Shown here piece by piece: positions 4,479 through 12,858 of a stretch of 21,088 bases of DNA (position 1 is its first letter; each line of letters starts with the position of its first letter). Under the pieces are notes generated by a model. That model made no database searches and was not told the origin of the DNA. It saw only the letters and a list, made by a program, of their open reading frames with translations. This stretch comes from a virus: the IMG/VR virus record IMGVR_UViG_3300047163_000029, positions 1 to 21,088 of that record. One strand, written 5' to 3'. The position numbers and the translations under genes were made by a program.

Positions 4479-6473
4479 TTAGGCGGCGAGGTACTTGTCG
4501 ATGAACGTGTCGCCGGTCGACACACGAGCGTCGTGCGCGGCACCGCGCGGAGCTGCGAGCGTCGCGGCCACTTGTGCACGCCCGTTGAGCAGGTAGTCCA
4601 GGGCCACGGTCGGGGCGTCGCACGCCGGGGCGTCGAGCTTCTTCAGCCCGTATGCCGCCATTTCCGACAGCGTCATCTCCGCGTGATCGAACGCACCGAC
4701 GACCGGAGACAGACGCGCGTACAGCGCATTTTTCGCCGCTTCCTCGCGGCGTAGCGTCGGCCCGATCTCGGCAACCTTCGCGGCCACCTGCTTGTCAACG
4801 AGGGCCGCGACTTCGGCCGCGTCCATACCCTTCTTCATCGGCTCCTCCTTTTCGGCATCGCGGGCGGCCTTCGCATCGGCGGCGGCCTTCGCATCGGCGG
4901 CGGCCTTCGCATCGCGCGCACCCTTGCGCGCATCGCGGGCACCGGCACGACGATCACGAGCACGGCGGCGATCCTTCGCTTCCTTGCTCTCGTCGTCCTT
5001 CTCCTTCTCCTCCTCGTAGGCGTCGCGCGCGGCTTCGGCCGCATCCTTCGCCATCTCCTCGGACTCAGAACTCATCGAGTCGGCAGTCGGTATGTCCTTG
5101 TCCTTGTTCTTGGACGGGGACTCTTTGCCCTCGGGGTCTTTGATTTCCGGCATGACAGTTACCTCATCAGTTGATTGGTCGTGACCAGACTTGCCCTTTT
5201 CGGCGGCAACTTTTCCGGCCACTTTGGTGGCGTACTCCTTGGAGTAACCCTTGCGTTCGAGTTCTCCAACCAGGGAATTGAACGAATCGGTTACGAACTT
5301 CTGCGTGTCGGCGTCCATGCAATCCGCTTCAGCGGCGTGGACTCGACCACACGTAATGCAGGCAGGCATGGCCTTTTCCTTCAAGTCGAGGGCAAATGTA
5401 AAGCATTCCGCCGCATCAAGTACCCGTACACGGTCACCCATTCGGCCTGCGCGCACGGACGAGAGGTGATTGCCGCGCAGATTCTTTTGCACGTACTGGT
5501 ACGCCTGACCGTTGTACACACCCTCAGACGGCACGAAGTCGCAACGGTAACCGCAAGACAGTTCGCGTTTGCCGCTAGAAATCTTCCGCGCCAGCTCCTG
5601 GGAAAACACCTTGATGTTTCCATAGAGCACGCCGTCCTTGTAGTAAGTCTGCTCACCGATAACGCCGTGCACGCCTTTCTGTTCGGCGGGCACCAGCATC
5701 TGCGTGTCGTCACCCAACAGTGCACTCGGGTGGTCATCGGTCCACGGCATGAGCCGGAAAGACTTCACCGTCTCCGGGTCGGACAGCTCCGATTCGGGGC
5801 GCAACACGTTGACCATCTTGTGACGGTCGCCGCCTTGGCGCACGGAGGCTTCGGAGTACTGGTAGACGCCTACGGTGGACAGCGGGTTGTCGAGAACCTC
5901 GAACCAACCGTTGGTGTCGTACTCGCGCCGGTCAAGGGCATCGGTGTTCATCACCGTGAGCCCGGTGATGTCGCTCGATTCCGTGGCACGACTGAGCACC
6001 TTCTTCAGTGTGGCCGCCATGCCAGGGTGTAACGGTTGAGGCGGATCGTCCAAAGGTGCCCAGCGTGATTCGGTGTGCTCAGCGTTCAACGTCGGGATCA
6101 CTTCCGCACCGACGTTCTGGTGAAAGGTTATGAACCCATTGCCGTCATCGATCTGCGTGAGGTCGCCCTGAAGAAGCCCGGCAAGGCCCGTCTCCTCGGC
6201 AAATTCACGATGTGCGGCCTGCTCCGGTGTCTCACCCTTCTCAATCGAGCCGCCAGCGCAACACCACTCGCCCTGGTGGTCGCGCGCCGTGGGCGAGCGC
6301 TTCAGGAACAGAGCCTTGTTGCCGTGCGTGAGTAGGATGCCGGCGGCATGCGCCTCGTCGTACGCCTTGTGAAGCGCGGCCGCAACGGCCTGCTTCTGCG
6401 GGTGCCCAGCCTTCACCATCTCGTGAATGTTGTGGCTGATTGCCTCTTTTGACGAGCCCGACTCAAGCGGCAT
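4479..6473 (-). CDS. Nudix hydrolase fused to DUF2213 prohead protease/scaffold
   Basis: A 664-aa fusion in one uninterrupted frame. Residues 5-40 (SGSSKEAISHNIHEMVKAG) resemble the short DUF6496-type phage domain. Residues ~41-165 form a Nudix fold with a perfect Nudix box (G75, E81, R89-E90, E93-E94, G96), so pyrophosphohydrolase activity on a nucleotide-type substrate is plausible. Residues ~175-365 match DUF2213 (YDTNGWFEVLDNPLST, FRLMPWTDDHP, ELSCGYRCDFVP), a family found before capsid genes and thought to act in prohead maturation. Residues ~440-545 are a highly charged coiled region with a three-copy Ala/Lys/Asp repeat, scaffold-like. The end resembles a capsid-binding tail. The start ATG overlaps the stop of the 29-aa membrane gene (TGATG). 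An internal ATG at 5951 (M175) could give a scaffold without Nudix, but no good ribosome site precedes it. Confidence 0.85.
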   Translation of the reverse strand: MPLESGSSKEAISHNIHEMVKAGHPQKQAVAAALHKAYDEAHAAGILLTHGNKALFLKRSPTARDHQGEWCCAGGSIEKGETPEQAAHREFAEETGLAGLLQGDLTQIDDGNGFITFHQNVGAEVIPTLNAEHTESRWAPLDDPPQPLHPGMAATLKKVLSRATESSDITGLTVMNTDALDRREYDTNGWFEVLDNPLSTVGVYQYSEASVRQGGDRHKMVNVLRPESELSDPETVKSFRLMPWTDDHPSALLGDDTQMLVPAEQKGVHGVIGEQTYYKDGVLYGNIKVFSQELARKISSGKRELSCGYRCDFVPSEGVYNGQAYQYVQKNLRGNHLSSVRAGRMGDRVRVLDAAECFTFALDLKEKAMPACITCGRVHAAEADCMDADTQKFVTDSFNSLVGELERKGYSKEYATKVAGKVAAEKGKSGHDQSTDEVTVMPEIKDPEGKESPSKNKDKDIPTADSMSSESEEMAKDAAEAARDAYEEEKEKDDESKEAKDRRRARDRRAGARDARKGARDAKAAADAKAAADAKAARDAEKEEPMKKGMDAAEVAALVDKQVAAKVAEIGPTLRREEAAKNALYARLSPVVGAFDHAEMTLSEMAAYGLKKLDAPACDAPTVALDYLLNGRAQVAATLAAPRGAAHDARVSTGDTFIDKYLAA
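4864..4917. repeat. 18-bp tandem repeat, 3 copies, in scaffold gene
   Basis: Three adjacent copies of an 18-bp unit (gcggccttcgcatcggcg on the plus strand), the last diverging near its end. In the coding frame they encode repeated Ala/Lys/Asp hexapeptides in the charged helical region of the scaffold (residues ~519-537). The unit keeps frame, so copy-number change would lengthen or shorten a helix without breaking the gene. Confidence 0.85.
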
Positions 6474-6562
6474 CAGTCATCTCCGAATTGCGAAACCAAA
6501 AGCCAGATGAGTAGGGCCAGCACCAGCACCACATAGACGACACGTAGCCACCACGGAATCAT
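6473..6562 (-). CDS. 29-aa single-pass membrane microprotein (second of two)
   Basis: Ninety bases between two one-base start-stop overlaps: its ATG (6562-6560) shares a base with the ParB-like stop, and its TGA (6475-6473) shares a base with the Nudix-DUF2213 start. This TGATG coupling at both ends is the main evidence for a real gene. The product starts MIPWWLRVVYVVLVLALL and is almost entirely a hydrophobic helix of about 20 residues ending in a short acidic tail (QFGDD). It is predicted to insert in the inner membrane with one pass. Its role is unknown; holin-like, superinfection-exclusion or anchoring functions are guesses. Confidence 0.65.
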   Translation of the reverse strand: MIPWWLRVVYVVLVLALLIWLLVSQFGDD

Positions 6563-7398
6563 CAGCCCCACCGCTCGGACAGCATGCGACGAAACTCCTC
6601 GATGCCAGCACGCAAGTGCTTGACGTGCTCCGGGTCCGGCGTGTTGCGTGCCAACCAGCGAGCCTGCCGCGCGGAACTCCACACGACGTCGCTCGACCAG
6701 TCACGCGGCTGCTTACCCGAACCGATTGCCGCGCGCAACGCCACGCGCTTCATCGTCACGCGCCCGTTCACGTCGCGGGCCGCCTCAAGAATTCTCAGTT
6801 GCCGATCGCGCGGCAAGGTCGCCAGTTTGAACGCCGCTGAGGGCGAAAGGCGCTCACTCCTCGGACGGCTCGGGTCCAGTAGTGCCTGGATCTTCGGATG
6901 CAGGTTCTGCAACGAAAGGTAGTTGTCTACCCAATTGGGCCACTTACCCAGGGCACGCGCGAGGTCTATGCGACGCATGCCGCCTTTGGTGTGCTGCATG
7001 TGCAGCGCGTCGCTGATCTCCATCGGCGTGTGGTCGGACCGGTTGAAGTTCGCGACCAATGACGCGAGGTGCTTCTCGACCTTGGTACCGAACGGCACGG
7101 AGCGCACGGCGGCCCACAAGGTCTTGATGCCGGCGACCTGCGCACTACGTAACCGCGACTCGCCGTTGATCAGTTCGTAGTCGTGCTCCGGGTCGTCCGT
7201 CACCGGCTCCACGGTCACCGGGTCTTGCTGTCCCATGACCTTCATGCTCTCGGCACGCGAGGCGATCTCCTCCGGGTCGAAGTACTTGCGGGGCTGGTCA
7301 GCGAACGCACGGATGCGCTCGATCGGAATCTTCCGCACGGCGTACGTAATGACTAGCGGATCGGCTGGCACGGCTTGCAGCTTCCGCACGTTGTTCAT
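6562..7398 (-). CDS. ParB/Srx-domain DNA-binding-like protein, 278 aa
   Basis: Residues ~20-120 form a ParB N-terminal-type domain: IPIERIRAFADQPRKYF, then EIASRAESMKVMGQQDPVTVEP, then the signature ELINGESRLRSAQVAGI (residues 76-92), which corresponds to the nucleotide-binding GExRxRA box of ParB-like proteins. Residues ~125-165 look like the following helix-turn-helix (EISDALHM, DLARALGKWPNWVDNYL). No ParA partner is visible, so plasmid-style partition is unlikely from this window. ParB-fold proteins can be CTPases, nucleases or regulators, and which applies here is not shown. It starts two bases after the DUF6527-like stop and is translationally coupled to the next membrane microgene. Its location inside the head cassette is unusual. 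Confidence 0.85.
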   Translation of the reverse strand: MNNVRKLQAVPADPLVITYAVRKIPIERIRAFADQPRKYFDPEEIASRAESMKVMGQQDPVTVEPVTDDPEHDYELINGESRLRSAQVAGIKTLWAAVRSVPFGTKVEKHLASLVANFNRSDHTPMEISDALHMQHTKGGMRRIDLARALGKWPNWVDNYLSLQNLHPKIQALLDPSRPRSERLSPSAAFKLATLPRDRQLRILEAARDVNGRVTMKRVALRAAIGSGKQPRDWSSDVVWSSARQARWLARNTPDPEHVKHLRAGIEEFRRMLSERWG

Positions 7399-7400
7399 GC

Positions 7401-7724
7401 CTATGGCGCCTTGTACACATTGGGCGCCGTCGGCGCACCATCACCCGCATTCGTCCAGGCGCCCTGCGTAAGACGGCAGTGCCACCCGCATGGCGTCACC
7501 TGTCGCAAGGACGGCTGCAACGTAGGGCGTTCAGTATCACCGTCCCAAAGCCAACAGTGCCAGCCATGCTTCTGCTTCTCATCCTGAGTGAGAGCCAACG
7601 GGATCGTGCTGCAATGCCCGCTGTGCACGTCGCACCCGCACGGGCACATAAAGTGCAGATATGCACCCGCGACGTCGTGCACGCGCACCTCGAAGTAGCC
7701 GGGCTGCGAACTGGCAAGTCTCAT
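7401..7724 (-). CDS. DUF6527-like zinc-binding protein, 107 aa
   Basis: The open frame extends to 7805, but the ATG at 7724 overlaps the upstream stop (ATGA) and gives a sensible 107-aa protein. It has a Cys/His-rich core: FMCPCGCDVHSGHC (residues 25-38), a Trp-rich WHCWLWDGD, PTLQPSL (residues 67-73) and CGWHC (79-83). This order (CPCGC, Trp, PTLxPS, CGxH) is that of the DUF6527 family, small probable zinc proteins. Some bacterial members occur beside ThiF/E2-type ubiquitin-like genes; none are seen here. Function in phages is unknown. It sits between two very small membrane-protein genes and the ParB-like gene. Confidence 0.6.
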   Translation of the reverse strand: MRLASSQPGYFEVRVHDVAGAYLHFMCPCGCDVHSGHCSTIPLALTQDEKQKHGWHCWLWDGDTERPTLQPSLRQVTPCGWHCRLTQGAWTNAGDGAPTAPNVYKAP

Positions 7725-7810
7725 GCCGCGTACCAAACCGCCGCGAGATAAACCGCCGCGAACGCAATGGCGATGCCCGCCAATATCCACAGGGTGTCGG
7801 TCCACTTCAT
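7721..7810 (-). CDS. 29-aa single-pass membrane microprotein (first of two)
   Basis: A 90-base gene with ATGA overlaps at both ends: its ATG (7810-7808) overlaps the stop of the 61-aa gene, and its TGA (7723-7721) overlaps the start of the DUF6527-like gene. The product begins MKWTDTLWILAGIAIAFAAV and continues as one hydrophobic helix to its C-terminus, so a single inner-membrane pass is predicted with a very short N-terminal cytoplasmic or periplasmic arm. It equals the later membrane microprotein in length but shares no obvious sequence. The coupled overlaps argue strongly for translation. Function unknown. Confidence 0.65.
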   Translation of the reverse strand: MKWTDTLWILAGIAIAFAAVYLAAVWYAA

Positions 7811-7992
7811 TGCTTGGTCATCCCCTCGCCAGCTTGCGCACCGACCTGCCTTGCCAGCTCGGTGAACACCTTGGCGAATTCGAGCGCCGCTTCGGGCGGC
7901 AGGAACCACTGACTCAGTGGTTGACCGAACACCACGACCACCTCATCCTTGTGCACGAAACACTGCACGGCGAGCTTCTGTATGTCAGTCAC
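7807..7992 (-). CDS. Small hypothetical protein, 61 aa
   Basis: The frame opens upstream at 8040, but the GTG at 7992 overlaps the stop of the gpF-like gene (GTGA) and is the likely start. The product begins MTDIQKLAVQCFVHKDEVVV and includes GQPLSQWFLPPEAALEFAKVF, giving a predicted strand-strand-helix layout. It looks like a small soluble protein of the kind encoded between head genes in many phages. No family or function is recognised. Confidence 0.65.
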   Translation of the reverse strand: MTDIQKLAVQCFVHKDEVVVVFGQPLSQWFLPPEAALEFAKVFTELARQVGAQAGEGMTKQ

Positions 7993-8834
7993 GCGGCCAC
8001 CTTGGTGAAGTTCAGCACGGGCCGCGCACGACAGCGGCACCCAATCAAATCCCCCGGCTTGCCGCGCACCTCGGGCTGATTACCTTCGGCACGTTGAATG
8101 ATCGGAGGCTTGTCGTACCGGAACACGCGGCCGTTAAGGTGCCTATGGTGAAGCTCGCGCGGGTAGCGCTCGCCACCCACAGCCACCCAGACATACTCCT
8201 CAACGCCGAGTGCCTGTAGTCGCGTTGCACTGACGCTCTCCGAAACCTTGCGCACCTGATCCAATGCGGTGAGCTGTGCACGCCGCACGTCGCCGTGGTA
8301 GCGCTTGGTCAGGTACGGCACGAGCTTGTTGAGCCCGGAGCCCGTCGTGATGGCGTTCATCACCTGCGCCTGCACCTCACCGAGATACTTCGCCGGGATG
8401 CGCGTGATCATGCCCACGCTCGCCTGTGCCGCAGCCTCGACCACCGCGCGCATGCGAGGGGTCTGCATTGTCGATTCAATCTGCTGTAGCTCAGCCACAT
8501 CTTTCAGCCCGTTGACGAGCTGCGCCGTGGAGGACGCCGTGACGTCGGTCACCAGGCGCTTCGACCACATGCGGGCAAGGTTCTCAAAGCGCAGGCGCCA
8601 CCGGGCCTGCAACGCCTCAAGTCGTGCGTGGGCGTCAGACGGTAGCTCATCCATCGAGCCGCTCAACTCGGGGTCAGCCCCAAGCTCTCGCACCAGCGCC
8701 CGCGTCTCGATGGTCATCGCGCGTAGCTCGCGGGCAATCGCGTTCGCCATCGCATACCCCACCTCCATGGGCGGGAGCAACGGCGCAAGGACGCGCTCAC
8801 CGAGACGCGGGCGCTGCAACGGTCGGCGGTTCAT
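7989..8834 (-). CDS. Phage head morphogenesis protein, Mu gpF-like
   Basis: This 281-aa protein belongs to the Mu gpF / SPP1 gp7-like head morphogenesis family, minor head proteins associated with portal and capsid assembly. The family signature lies at the C-terminus: RELHHRHLNGRVFRYDKPP (residues 226-244) followed by KPGDLIGCRCRARP (259-272). The central LTALDQVRKVSESVSATRL (residues 188-206) matches the helix preceding it in this family. The N-terminal two-thirds is helical. Its ATG overlaps the portal stop (ATGA), the classic portal-gpF arrangement, and its stop overlaps the next gene's GTG. Length is ordinary for the family. Confidence 0.9.
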   Translation of the reverse strand: MNRRPLQRPRLGERVLAPLLPPMEVGYAMANAIARELRAMTIETRALVRELGADPELSGSMDELPSDAHARLEALQARWRLRFENLARMWSKRLVTDVTASSTAQLVNGLKDVAELQQIESTMQTPRMRAVVEAAAQASVGMITRIPAKYLGEVQAQVMNAITTGSGLNKLVPYLTKRYHGDVRRAQLTALDQVRKVSESVSATRLQALGVEEYVWVAVGGERYPRELHHRHLNGRVFRYDKPPIIQRAEGNQPEVRGKPGDLIGCRCRARPVLNFTKVAA

Positions 8835-10489
8835 TTCTCCGCCTTTCCGCCTTTCTTGGTCTCATCCTTCTCCAGCTTCACGGCGGCCTTCACCGCGCGG
8901 CTGCCTTCTCCGGCGGCGCCGGATGCCGCTTCGGTGTCCGTGTCCTCGGGCAGCTCCTCGGTTTCGAGATCGACGCCGATGGCGTGGTAGCCAGACTCCT
9001 TGTCAGACGCAACACGGGCTCGCGCATCCTTCGGAGACAGCGCACCCACGGCAACGAGCGCCGCGTCGGTTTGCGCCTTGGTCAGATTCATCTGAGCCTG
9101 CTCGACGTGGGTCAGCGCGTCAAGGTTGTTCCACGTGACTGTAATCTCCACGTTCTCAAGCTCCGGGAACTTCGGCAGTACAATCGAGCGCAGCACCAGC
9201 TCGTGGTGCCGTTCGAGCAACGGGGTGAAGTCCCGCTCCTGCATTGACTCCAGCATCTCGTGGTAGCTGGCTTCCTCATAGTCGCCCGTCGCCGCAAAGC
9301 CGGTAGGCGACGTGCCCATGAGCTTCGCGATGGGCATGCCAGCCGTCGCGGCCACGAGCCCGTACTGCGTCATGACCAGCCCGTCAAATTCACCGAGGGG
9401 CGTGTCGAACTGCTGGAACTGCTCGGTCTCCTTATCCCCGATCTTGATGCCGAAGTTGTCGCGGTTCGCGATCCAGTTCGCAATTACGTACTCAGCCTTC
9501 TTCGTATCGGCCATGACCTTCGCCATGTCCGTCATCCAAACCGTTGTGCGCTTGGAGAGCACCAGGGCCGGGGCCTCGTTGGCCGTGCGCTCGGCGCAGT
9601 ACACGCGCTCCATGATCATCTGCGGCAGCGGGACACCACCGAACAGATACAGCGGCTTCATCACGTCCGGCGGGTCGAAATACTTGAAGATCACGAGGTG
9701 CGAACGGTGCACGCGACGCGCGCCAATCTGCCACCACGTCGGCTCGTAGAAGTGCCGCGACGACGGCACTGCTGCACTGGTGAGGTCCAGCATCGGCGCA
9801 CACCAGTAAGGGTCGATCTGTGAGATACCCTTGTACGTGCCGGGCTTCACACCGTCTATGTTGAACGGCTTCTCGTAATAGTTCGGATCGTCACTCTCAA
9901 CCTCGAACAGTGCAATACGCACACCGAAGATGCGGCCCTTGATGCCAAAGTCGCGGAGCTGCCCCTTGATACCGAATTTGCGGTCGGCGGTCTTGAACAG
10001 CTTGAGCGCGTCCTCGTCAATGTCCTCGCCGTTTGCCAAGATGATCTCGTACCCGTTGCGCACGGCGTCATCGACAGGGACGGCACATGCCTTGTAGATC
10101 AGCCAGTGCTGCGCGACGAACGCTGCGTTCTGATACCCAATGAAGCCCTGCTGCATGAACCACGGCAGGAGCTGCAAATGCGCACCGGCCTGCACGGTCA
10201 GGGCCTTGAACGCGGGCAGCACCCCGTTGCTATCGTCCATGGCGGACATCGACTTGACCTGGGGCGCCTGGTCCATCGCCCCAACCGCAGCGGGCATCAC
10301 CACCATGATCTTTTCAGACGCGTCCTTCACGGACCGCATGAACGTGTCAACCTGTGCCTGCGTCACCATGCGCTGCGAGTCGAGGAGGCCCTGCAACGGG
10401 TTTGCATACTTGTCCGCGCGGCTCACCACCGGCGCCGGCGCGTCGACGGGCGCGGGCTTGCGAAACAGTTTCTTGAGGCGGGTGAGCAT
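8831..10489 (-). CDS. Portal protein (DUF1073 / HI1409-like family)
   Basis: 552 aa from the ATG at 10489, which lies two bases past the terminase stop; the frame is open further upstream, but that part overlaps terminase. The portal is the dodecameric ring through which DNA enters the head. Supporting stretches of the DUF1073 portal family are LIYKACAVPVDDAVRNGYEI, DRKFGIKGQLRDFGIKGRIFG, SRHFYEPTWW, RRVHRSHLVIFKYFDPP, and GMPIAKLMGTSPTGFAATGDYEE, which resembles the family's hallmark near the tail. The C-terminal ~60 residues are acidic then Lys-rich. Some databases label this family anti-CBASS Acb1, but no HxT/HxS phosphodiesterase pair is visible, so portal is preferred. Its neighbours TerL and gpF fit. 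Confidence 0.9.
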   Translation of the reverse strand: MLTRLKKLFRKPAPVDAPAPVVSRADKYANPLQGLLDSQRMVTQAQVDTFMRSVKDASEKIMVVMPAAVGAMDQAPQVKSMSAMDDSNGVLPAFKALTVQAGAHLQLLPWFMQQGFIGYQNAAFVAQHWLIYKACAVPVDDAVRNGYEIILANGEDIDEDALKLFKTADRKFGIKGQLRDFGIKGRIFGVRIALFEVESDDPNYYEKPFNIDGVKPGTYKGISQIDPYWCAPMLDLTSAAVPSSRHFYEPTWWQIGARRVHRSHLVIFKYFDPPDVMKPLYLFGGVPLPQMIMERVYCAERTANEAPALVLSKRTTVWMTDMAKVMADTKKAEYVIANWIANRDNFGIKIGDKETEQFQQFDTPLGEFDGLVMTQYGLVAATAGMPIAKLMGTSPTGFAATGDYEEASYHEMLESMQERDFTPLLERHHELVLRSIVLPKFPELENVEITVTWNNLDALTHVEQAQMNLTKAQTDAALVAVGALSPKDARARVASDKESGYHAIGVDLETEELPEDTDTEAASGAAGEGSRAVKAAVKLEKDETKKGGKAEK

Positions 10490-10491
10490 GA

Positions 10492-11733
10492 TCAACCGAA
10501 TGAGCTGCGACGGCGCTTGATCAACGGGTCCACCGCGTAGCGCAGCGCGTCGATACAATGGTTGTCCGCGTCGCGCACGTCGGCCAACACGTCGCCGCTG
10601 TTCCTATCCGTCTTGTACGAGTACAACCGCATCTCCCGTTGGGTGTGGGGACAGTTTGGATGGACCACGATCTTGTCGTAGCTGCGCAGGTGCGCGATGC
10701 CATCCTCTACCGAGCCCTTCCACTTATCGACGGCAGTGATGCGAGGAAAACCATGCTGTTTGACGTCGGAGATAGTTTCGGGCCGAGCATTGTCAGCCCG
10801 AATAATGTGAGCCTCAGAACCGTTGATACGCTGGAACAGCGCAGGTAGCTTATCGTTGTCGCAATGAACAGCATACGCTTCGGCCTCCACGTACAGCACG
10901 CGGTCATGCACCCACGCCTTGATGAGCACCGTGGGGTCGACCGAGAAGCCCCAATCGGCGCCGAAGTACGGCCCACCCCACTTCTCCTTGTCCGGCACGA
11001 ACGACGCGCTGACCCACTTACCGCGAAAGATCGTGGCCTCGGTGTGGGACCGGCACTCGCCCTCCCATACATGATCGTACTCGGCACGCGCCGCCGCGCG
11101 GGCAATGTCGTCGGTCGCGATCTCAACCAGCCGTAGCGCGTCGAGTCGGTCGTTGTTCAGGACTTCCGGGAAGAACGGGTTGTCGTACCAGTTGACCTTG
11201 ACGACCAGGGCACGCTCAGGCGGTGGCGGTGTCACGACGAACCGCTGATACGTGTCGTCCTCGATGTCGTCCGGGTTGAAGCTCACCCAGATCTCCGAGT
11301 GCGTCTCGCGGATCGACGGGATCAGGAACTTCCACGACTCTTTACTGGCCGACTGCGCTTCCTCGACCCAGCAGATGTCGATCCCCTTGATCGACTTGAT
11401 CTCGCGAATGTTGAGCCGCAGGCCCCTGAAGATAAATTCGGAGCCGGTGACCGACACAATGGAGTTGGCCGAGACCCGGAAGTACTCCGAGTACCCCATC
11501 TGCTCAATGGCGTCGACCAGCACCCTGAACACCGAGTCGGCGATCGAGTTCTGAAACTCTCGTGTGCACAGCACACGAATGCGCGAGCGTGCGGCGAGGT
11601 AGATCAGGACGCGAGCGAATGACTCCGTCTTACCAGCACCACGACCGCCGTAAAAAACCTTGAAGCGTTTAGGCTGGAACAGCGACCGAAAGGCTTTCGG
11701 AATCGTCAGCTTGCTCGGCGCTGGCGCCGGCAC
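10492..11733 (-). CDS. terL: Terminase large subunit (DNA-packaging ATPase/nuclease)
   Basis: Packages DNA into proheads by ATP hydrolysis and cuts concatemers. From the GTG at 11733 the protein is 413 aa. It has Walker A GGRGAGKT (residues 29-36), Walker B IDICWVEE (118-125), and an RNase H-like nuclease domain with Asp in GADWGFSVD (D260), IRADNARPE (D314) and DADNHCIDALRYA (388-400). This is the PBSX/Terminase_3 type. Start choice: the frame runs upstream to a GTG at 11802 and an ATG at 11787, but terminases of this type begin shortly before the PKAFRSLFQPKRFKVFYGG segment, and a GGAG site precedes 11733. This leaves a 65-bp overlap with the small subunit gene. The KESWKFL codons (11323-11343) recur exactly near 12.87 kb. 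Confidence 0.95.
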   Translation of the reverse strand: MPAPAPSKLTIPKAFRSLFQPKRFKVFYGGRGAGKTESFARVLIYLAARSRIRVLCTREFQNSIADSVFRVLVDAIEQMGYSEYFRVSANSIVSVTGSEFIFRGLRLNIREIKSIKGIDICWVEEAQSASKESWKFLIPSIRETHSEIWVSFNPDDIEDDTYQRFVVTPPPPERALVVKVNWYDNPFFPEVLNNDRLDALRLVEIATDDIARAAARAEYDHVWEGECRSHTEATIFRGKWVSASFVPDKEKWGGPYFGADWGFSVDPTVLIKAWVHDRVLYVEAEAYAVHCDNDKLPALFQRINGSEAHIIRADNARPETISDVKQHGFPRITAVDKWKGSVEDGIAHLRSYDKIVVHPNCPHTQREMRLYSYKTDRNSGDVLADVRDADNHCIDALRYAVDPLIKRRRSSFG

Positions 11734-12295
11734 CCGCTGGTGGCTCCGATTGATCTTCCTGGTGCTCGATGATGCGGCCGCTAACATCAGTCTTGATTCC
11801 ACCAGGCTCTACGAACACGAGCGTCTGGTATACATCACCCAGGGTCGGAGGCGGTAATGGGTTGCCGTTGAAGTCACCCAGGCCGCGGTTGTCGGTCGAT
11901 GCACCCAACGCGAGACGCGCCATGCGCTGCGCCTTCTCAACTATTGTCATCACCATCGTCAGACGCTCTAGATCGAACGGGTCCTGCGAGTCAGTGGGGA
12001 TCTGCTGTAGTTGAGCTACAGCCTTCGCACGAACAACAGTCGCAACCTTGAGATCGGTTGCATTCCAATCCTTGAGCTGCTTGATCGCATCTTCAGTGAC
12101 AGCCTGCGTCGCCTCGGCAGTCAGCTTTTGTTGGTGCTCGATTCGCGCCCGCCCCCACCCACCAGCACAGCCACGCGTGCGCAACGCGCCGTAGCTCAGG
12201 CCGTATTTCTTGGCGAGGTTCTTGTACCCAATGGTGGTAGTGACGTACTCAAGGCGAATGACGTTGAAGTCAACCTTGGCCGGTGCCTTGGTCAT
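11669..12295 (-). CDS. terS: Terminase small subunit-like protein
   Basis: 208 aa from the ATG at 12295. The N-terminal ~55 residues contain a helix-turn-helix of the small-terminase type (TTIGYKNLAKKYGLSYGALR, then CAGGWGRARIEHQ), which recognises packaging sites. The middle is helical (KAVAQLQQIP, RLTMVMTIVEKAQRMARLAL), fitting an oligomerisation region, and the C-terminus is acidic and Pro/Ala/Gly-rich. It lies immediately upstream of and overlaps the large subunit gene, the standard arrangement. A consensus -35 box sits upstream in the 12296-12384 gap. The exact small-terminase family is not certain. Confidence 0.8.
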   Translation of the reverse strand: MTKAPAKVDFNVIRLEYVTTTIGYKNLAKKYGLSYGALRTRGCAGGWGRARIEHQQKLTAEATQAVTEDAIKQLKDWNATDLKVATVVRAKAVAQLQQIPTDSQDPFDLERLTMVMTIVEKAQRMARLALGASTDNRGLGDFNGNPLPPPTLGDVYQTLVFVEPGGIKTDVSGRIIEHQEDQSEPPAGAGASAEQADDSESLSVAVPA

Positions 12296-12329
12296 GGCGG
12301 CACCTGTCCTACTCTAGTGATTGGCCGTG

Positions 12330-12359
12330 AGGGTAGGGCTTTTTGTGAGCCCCTGTCAA
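12330..12359 (-). promoter_or_regulatory. Candidate late promoter upstream of terminase
   Basis: On the minus strand a perfect -35 TTGACA (12359-12354) is followed after 18 bases by TACCCT (12335-12330), which keeps the three most conserved -10 positions. The predicted transcript would begin about 28 bases before the TerS ATG. A 5-bp inverted repeat (GGGCT/AGCCC, 12333-12351) overlaps the spacer. The poor -10 suggests it is weak or needs an activator. Confidence 0.35.
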
Positions 12360-12384
12360 CACGTAACTCACTGAAGGGCCGCGG

Positions 12385-12840
12385 TTAATCGTTCTCTAGG
12401 GGCCGACTCAGCCGGCCGGCAAGGTAGTAGTACGCACAATCCAGGCGTGTCCCGTGCTCCTGCCACGTGATGCCGAGCAGTTTGATTTGCTTGCTAACCG
12501 ACTCATAAGACAGCAGTTTTGCGTACAGCACCTCTTTCGGACCGATGGGCATTTCCTGCATGGCCCGCCAGATCAGCAGCCCGTCGCCGAAGTACACCTC
12601 GGAGAAGTGCTGCTTGAACGTCCCGCCCTGCCCGGCGCCCTCGCCTTCGGCCCTGATCTTGCCCAGGATGGTCGACGCGGGCCACCCGTCAAAGTGCCGC
12701 ATGCCATCGGCAAACTGCTGATAGCCACGCATGGCGCGTAGGTACTGCACCTTCCAAACGGCCAGCATGGGGTTGAGCCAGTCACGTGGATGTCCGTGCA
12801 CCATGTGGCTCATCGACTCACGTTCAGCTACGGCGTTCAT
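12385..12840 (-). CDS. Possible Q-like late antiterminator / sigma-region-4-like protein
   Basis: 151 aa, starting at an ATG seven bases after AAGGT. The C-terminal half reads like a sigma-region-4-type helix-turn-helix: EMPIGPKEVLYAKLLSYES followed by VSKQIKLLGITWQEHGTRL and a last helix AYYYLAGRL. That pattern (conserved residues before a Y..KLLS helix, then a recognition helix) is shared by phage Q-type antiterminators of the DUF1133/RinA-like kind. The N-terminal half (PMLAVWKVQYLRAMRGYQQF) also fits. It has its own promoter and stands just ahead of the terminase genes, where late-gene activators lie. Family assignment is by pattern and position only; it could also be an unrelated phage regulator. 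Confidence 0.45.
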   Translation of the reverse strand: MNAVAERESMSHMVHGHPRDWLNPMLAVWKVQYLRAMRGYQQFADGMRHFDGWPASTILGKIRAEGEGAGQGGTFKQHFSEVYFGDGLLIWRAMQEMPIGPKEVLYAKLLSYESVSKQIKLLGITWQEHGTRLDCAYYYLAGRLSRPLEND

Positions 12841-12858
12841 TCAACTTACCTTATGGTT

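Follow-up and report, generated by a model that had tools for sequence, protein, structure and literature searches.

A putatively optional ParB-class gene in a phage head operon and the recurrence of its C-terminal tail in the same slot

Gene content between gpF and the head maturation protease

The window analyzed here is the IMG/VR virus record IMGVR_UViG_3300047163_000029 over its positions 1-21,088 (21,088 bases). On its minus strand, TerL, the portal, gpF, a head maturation protease with NUDIX and DUF2213 domains, and a cement protein were identified by family match, and the genes called TerS and MCP were named from position only. The order on this strand was gpF, x77, TM1, DUF6527, ParB, TM2, and the NUDIX-DUF2213 protease, and the packing was tight (Table 1). 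The DUF6527-ParB junction has a gap of 2 bases, and all other neighbors in the slot overlap by 1 or 4 bases, indicating that the slot genes are very probably real and co-translated. For x77, no family was found in Pfam, PHROG, PADLOC, or NCBIfam. Homologues of x77 were present in L002, L004, and L016, and a weaker one in L006, where it lies upstream of the terminase genes.

Table 1. Genes and features of the minus strand from gpF to the protease.
Feature	Position	Strand	Basis	Place in slot
gpF-like minor head protein	7989..8834	-	Phage_Mu_F 7.2e-14 (Pfam); phrog_324 head morphogenesis 5.2e-52	upstream border of variable slot
x77, 61 aa	7807..7992	-	GTG start overlaps gpF stop	
TM1, 29 aa, single hydrophobic span	7721..7810	-	ATG start overlaps x77 stop	
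DUF6527 Cys/His-rich protein, 107 aa	7401..7724	-	PF20137 2.1e-8, over cut-off; phrog_15183 3.1e-13	
ParB/KorB/Noc-class protein, ParB_N + HTH, 278 aa	6562..7398	-	Pfam, TIGR00180, PDB match, predicted fold	
ParB C-terminal tail, residues 237-278	6565..6690	-	two predicted helices, 242-252 and 256-277; motif HVxxLRAGIxEFRxxL	
TM2, 29 aa, single hydrophobic span	6473..6562	-		between ParB and protease
NUDIX + DUF2213 head maturation protease	4479..6473	-	DUF2213 3.3e-37, NUDIX 2e-17 (Pfam); phrog_3778 3.2e-112	downstream border of slot

The sequence-only reading had noticed a ParB N-terminal-type protein at this place, adjoined by a Cys/His-rich DUF6527-like protein and flanked on both sides by membrane microgenes, and each of these elements was recovered. 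ParB matched Pfam ParB_N (4e-14) and HTH_ParB (4.9e-5), both over their cut-offs. The DUF6527 reading frame was listed as 7401-7805, and this longer ORF scored 34.4 bits with PF20137 against a cut-off of 23.6; the ATG at 7724, the coordinate that had been given earlier, overlaps the TM1 stop and yields the protein of 107 residues. The two microgenes each encode a strongly hydrophobic stretch, with 19-residue Kyte-Doolittle maxima of 2.43 for TM1 and 2.66 for TM2. The pair had also been placed between gpF and scaffold genes; the gpF border held, whereas the "scaffold" is the NUDIX-DUF2213 protease.

The head genes of the window resemble E217/PB1/Pam3-type head modules, in that PB1 and BcepF1 were included in the named phages among the best portal matches and the cement protein matched the E217 gp24/Pam3 gp6 family. 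In contrast to those modules, the protease of the window is fused to NUDIX, and the slot contains other genes. The NUDIX domain is N-terminal in the protease, and this N-terminal part was common to the aligned relatives.

Distribution of ParB and its neighbors

When a single ParB or DUF6527 sequence was used as the query, no relatives were found in viral_contigs. A two-sequence ParB alignment was then employed, which found 14 loci in viral_contigs and 2 distant loci in genome_contigs. Five of the 14 were close, with 53-68% identity (L086, L087, which is the L010 contig, L088, L089, and L090), and the other nine were distant, with 29-38% identity. The gpF and protease genes directly flank ParB in L088 and L089. 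In L090, where ParB likewise comes just after gpF, the record is truncated within ParB. In L010, gpF precedes the portal, and ParB is located between a small protein and the protease. L008, a sister phage, has no ParB stretch; it matches L010 at 96.8% identity across the 5,443 bases on the upstream side and at 95.7% across the 4,386 bases on the downstream side, and farther upstream the two were divergent. In the 27.5-kb record of L086, ParB is one gene downstream of a head-tail connector gene. Fourteen other window proteins (portal, gpF, protease, cement, MCP, TerL, TerS, and x77 included) showed no match in L086 by single-sequence phmmer at E 0.01, a search in which distant homologues could be missed. 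Similarly, TerL of the window type was not found in L010, L088, and L089. The absence from L008 and the presence in L086 argue that ParB is an optional and apparently dispensable gene, occurring in two structural operons that are unrelated by a comparison in which distant L086 head homologues would be missed.

The slot was further surveyed in 26 distinct records (L087 not counted), brought in from the best 80 of 222 portal relatives and from the ParB search; this count is without L002 and L090 (cut inside the slot), L118 (gpF not placed), and L007. In these records, the interval separating the last head gene from the protease ranged from an overlap to 6,530 bases and contained varied genes, small hydrophobic ones included. 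The earlier view that the window genes are accessory to capsid assembly is therefore supported in the case of ParB, by its absence from the closely matching sister phage, and the slot as such is variable among relatives. In a set of loci related to one another (L026, L034, L035, L037, L039, L040, L046, and L060), the gpF-protease slot contained 4.2-6.5 kb of other genes, some of which appeared repetitive or fibre-like by eye.

It had been proposed that the four genes from TM1 to TM2 (membrane, zinc, ParB, membrane) form one accessory module. Their tight packing in the window would suit this, as would the 70-kb record of L091, in which DUF6527 and a distant ParB (ParB_N over cut-off) occur together, although ~26 kb apart. 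However, the neighborhood survey of DUF6527 and ParB pairs gave a different picture. PF20137 was found in 3 of 16 records searched (L004, L014, and L091; records may be fragments) and in none of the five other records with a close ParB relative (L010, L086, L088, L089, and L090; all may be fragments). The records of L004 (54 kb), L014, and L105, which have a DUF6527 or DUF6527-like gene, showed no ParB_N match, and no membrane peptides flanked ParB in L010, L088, and L089. The four-gene module was thus rejected on the gene content of relatives, and we give it next to no chance. The DUF6527 and ParB genes of the window are best read as two separate passengers of one slot; DUF6527 and the two membrane peptides would be separate accessory genes that landed in the same variable slot. 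Their pairing is suggestive in one genome and did not recur in the close relatives surveyed.

The DUF6527-like gene of L105 is located between the portal and gpF; its protein matched phrog_3362 (1.4e-20) and scored 22.0 bits in Pfam, just under the cut-off of 23.6, and 254 phage records matched it by tblastn at E 1e-3. Within the DUF6527 family (PF20137; phrog_15183, phrog_3362), the window protein is over the Pfam cut-off and is otherwise an ordinary member. Nothing on DUF6527 was found in the literature searched, and a possible link to bacterial ubiquitin-like operons received no confirmation there and was set aside. In deposited genomes, several DUF6527-like phage proteins bear the label "ammonia monooxygenase," possibly a propagated misannotation.

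Predicted fold of ParB and comparison with known systems

We analyzed the domains of the window ParB against their Pfam cut-offs. ParB_N (PF02195) scored 52.9 bits against 26.3, the ParB-type HTH that follows it (PF17762) 23.8 bits against 22.6, and TIGR00180 71 bits against 58.45. The PADLOC models of known anti-phage defense proteins gave no family for ParB, DUF6527, or x77 at E 0.1. The best PDB sequence match was 7bnk, M. xanthus ParB (E 4.8e-15). A structural model was built from 13 aligned sequences with a mean pLDDT of 85.6, replacing an earlier 5-sequence model with a pLDDT of 55.1. VIA-align of this model placed KorB first (8qa9_B, Z 18.4, 198 residues, rmsd 3.3), followed by C. crescentus ParB (Z 16.7) and Noc (Z 16.2). 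These alignments span approximately residues 20-230, and the C-terminal domains lie outside the comparison because the best-matching solved structures are C-terminally truncated. By its domains, the window ParB is a two-domain ParB_N + HTH protein, and its predicted fold is closest to KorB, ParB, and Noc.

By PDB alignment, Q35 and E80 of the window ParB correspond to Q52 and E93 of M. xanthus ParB, two positions that carry mutations in the nucleotide-bound structures 7bnr and 7o0n. The CTP-site residues Q35, E80, N117, and R120 were kept in the window ParB, and Q35, G79, R82, N117, R120, and E127 were among the 10 invariant columns of 13 aligned ParBs. In contrast, the position of the Glu in the EN..R motif (by count, residue 126 of M. 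xanthus ParB) is occupied by Ala in the window ParB (Ala116) and in the four aligned close relatives, suggesting that CTP turnover may be altered.

The window ParB is thus similar to KorB of plasmid RK2, Noc, and chromosomal ParB/Spo0J in its ParB_N + HTH arrangement, predicted fold, and most CTP-site residues. It differs from them by a tail of ~40 residues that matched no Pfam family above the cut-off, by having no detected ParA and no operator found, and by its location in a phage head operon. ParA was searched for with PF13614, the only ParA model used, which matched none of six ParB-carrying records, and these records may be fragments. A parS/NBS scan of the window gave nothing beyond one parS match with 3 mismatches, and the site of this ParB subfamily may differ. 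No palindromes were specific to ParB carriers; one with 6-base arms common to L089, L010, and L088 was located inside the protease gene and was also present in L012, which lacks ParB, and was rejected. The ParB fold alone would allow plasmid-type partition of a phage-plasmid, but the ParA and parS results, with these bounds, and the head-operon location make this hardly tenable.

Phage ParBs near late or packaging genes are already known. Iyer et al. 2017 (PMC5512222) describe DdrB-like ParB domains that adjoin virion structural genes, and report processed DdrB in the P1 head. The DdrB-like ParB domains of phage polyvalent proteins described there share with the window ParB that a ParB superfamily protein lies beside virion structural genes, whereas the window protein has the ParB_N + HTH architecture; the two were compared by gene context. 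On this precedent, and given the location of ParB among head genes, ParB could be packaged in the head and injected, and could then act on host or incoming phage DNA, as proposed for P1 DdrB-type ParB domains. Such delivery with the virion appears unlikely to us, since the window ParB is a two-domain protein near KorB/ParB/Noc and not a multidomain polyvalent protein.

According to PMC6536676, ParB-Tls loci lie upstream of the terminase, often with or fused to methyltransferases, and are proposed to direct DNA modification at packaging. They resemble the window locus in having a phage ParB near packaging genes and tie ParB-like genes to the terminase. Furthermore, L002, a phage near-identical to the window, carries another ParB_N gene that precedes its terminase genes. 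However, the ParB-Tls arrangement, with ParB upstream of TerL and modification genes between them, is absent in the window, where terL, portal, and gpF all precede ParB and none of its neighbors is a modification gene. A role as a guide for DNA modification at packaging is thus very improbable. A figure legend of PMC7468147 names a ParB domain nuclease gene in a phage with a variable region between the integrase and the large terminase gene.

The C-terminal tail and the role of ParB

The C-terminal ~40 residues of ParB are predicted to form a helical hairpin. A weak phmmer match of ParB in L016 covered the C-terminal end only. A tail profile was built from 5 ParB tails only and run on 30,862 stop-to-stop ORFs from 128 records, namely the window and 127 loci, several of which are copies of the same contigs. 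The profile found a 56-aa protein in L105 (2.2e-15), a 139-aa protein in L016 (8.6e-13), and a protein in L004 (2.8e-10); the next best match was 0.26 and the best reversed ORF 0.084. Similarly, a degenerate DNA pattern for LRAGIxEFR found five stretches in all viral_contigs, which were four known carriers and L105. A looser pattern gave nine stretches, five known carriers and L124-L127; these four were rejected, L125 having a profile E of 0.26 and the other three being unlisted by the profile. Scans with protease and gpF alignments for more slots brought extra loci and no further tail carrier; the loci of the earlier scan were covered by the profile search, and those of the later one were all known contigs.

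These results reveal that the ParB tail is also present in this slot as part of a small HTH protein in L016, and by itself as proteins of 56 and 63 residues in L105 and L004, respectively. This observation is new in the present analysis, without a claim to priority in print. The L016 protein matched several HTH families, all under their cut-offs, with a best value of 3.2e-7, and the L105 and L004 proteins matched no family in Pfam or PHROG. The L105 tail gene begins at the stop codon of gpF and extends to immediately before the start of the protease; the L004 reading follows x77 with an overlap, and its start codon is our choice. In the head operon, seven of the eight tail carriers come shortly before the protease gene. 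The tail was present in 6 of the 26 slot records (window, L004, L010, L016, L088, and L089), which derive from the best 80 of 222 portal relatives and the ParB-found loci. Since searches with ParB or the tail brought in L088, L089, L086, and L105, any carrier frequency that counts these loci is an overestimate; L105, found by the tail, is outside the 26-record count. Among the 21 records brought by the portal search alone, again from the best 80 of 222 relatives, three carried the tail (L004, L010, and L016), and many of the 18 non-carriers were close to one another. A His-rich protein follows the tail carrier in L016 (3445-3960) and in L004 (after 12958); its L016 copy had no Pfam or PHROG family.

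Next, we analyzed the conservation of the tail. In 18 pairs with a non-ParB carrier, which are not independent, identity at codon positions 1/2/3 was 0.615/0.658/0.380, as expected for selection on protein sequence. A heptad-spaced V-L-I-F-L pattern was kept in seven of the eight tails and was T-L-I-F-L in L105. The best match of the tail profile in the PDB had an E of 0.36, and none of the eight tails, run singly, matched a Pfam family over its cut-off. DUF6779 matched one of the eight (L016; E 0.009 alone, 0.0017 for the whole protein, 19.4 bits against 28.1) and was treated as a probable chance match. With the 56-aa L105 protein, tblastn gave no phage match at E 10 and three plasmid matches at E 4-9.

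ParB of this class needs to dimerize, and canonical ParB has its dimerization domain at the C-terminal place where the tail sits. This position is most simply read as that of a module that would be portable and serve for self-association, a role that would fit the small HTH protein in L016 too, and the tail probably self-associates. Against this, the helical moment of the tail helix was unremarkable relative to shuffles in six of eight sequences. Furthermore, pure dimerization does not readily account for tails that stand alone and lack a DNA-binding domain; they could be remnants, or they would pair with themselves, with the ParB or HTH tail carriers, or with another partner.

Two partners were considered for the tail. 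As a head or packaging adaptor, the tail would attach to a component of the head, portal, or terminase, to which phage DNA would be brought by the N-terminal part. The location of nearly all carriers just upstream of the protease and the sharing of one tail by different N-termini (ParB, small HTH, or none) are consistent with this, but in L086, which has ParB with the tail, no homologue was detected for any head or packaging protein tested, where distant ones would be missed, and the window-type TerL was not detected in three of the close carriers. Self-association or a host partner is thus more economical than head docking, and we consider the adaptor quite unlikely. Alternatively, the tail could bind a bacterial protein, such as a nucleoid or transcription factor. 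This would suit both the proteins that consist of the tail alone and the presence of the tail in phages whose head types otherwise have little in common, such as L086, in which no tested head protein was detected. Nothing in the tail indicates a particular host protein, however, and we regard binding of a host factor as unlikely.

A wider proposal covers these cases together. The ~40-residue helical tail could be an exchangeable recruitment module of phage late operons, carried on a CTP-gated ParB clamp or on a small HTH protein, or made alone as a protein of 56-63 residues. It would recruit various DNA-binding heads to a single shared partner, or, where it has no such head, compete for that partner, in virion assembly or host takeover. 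We offer this tentatively, as a possible and somewhat unlikely reading.

For the ParB gene itself, our preferred reading, with a probability of about 40%, is that it is an optional late-operon cargo gene encoding a CTP-type DNA clamp of the ParB/KorB/Noc class and not a partition protein. Such a ParB would bind CTP, close on phage DNA, and spread, and it would act late in infection, without ParA, as a KorB-like local regulator or organizer of phage DNA; late transcription would be deduced from gene order only. Most knowledge of ParB-type CTP switches comes from work on partition, nucleoid occlusion, and plasmid regulation. A ParB that has no detectable ParA, is an optional late cargo, and has a tail that also occurs alone would offer a small testable system for the role of a ParB clamp in virus assembly.

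Other ParB genes were also observed. L002 matches the window at 98% identity across 4,964 bases (window 7895-12858). Its positions 2-652 and 835-1557 hold a ParB_N gene (PF02195 3.1e-11), different from the window ParB and upstream of the terminase genes, and an adjacent gene that appears to resemble a PAPS reductase. In another phage type, a ParB with an N-terminal extension was present in L094 (6644-7819) and L093 (7773-8948), and ParB_N and HTH_ParB were both matched in L094. Judging by gene order, the genes upstream of this ParB would be terminase and portal, which may be another example of a ParB in a late operon.
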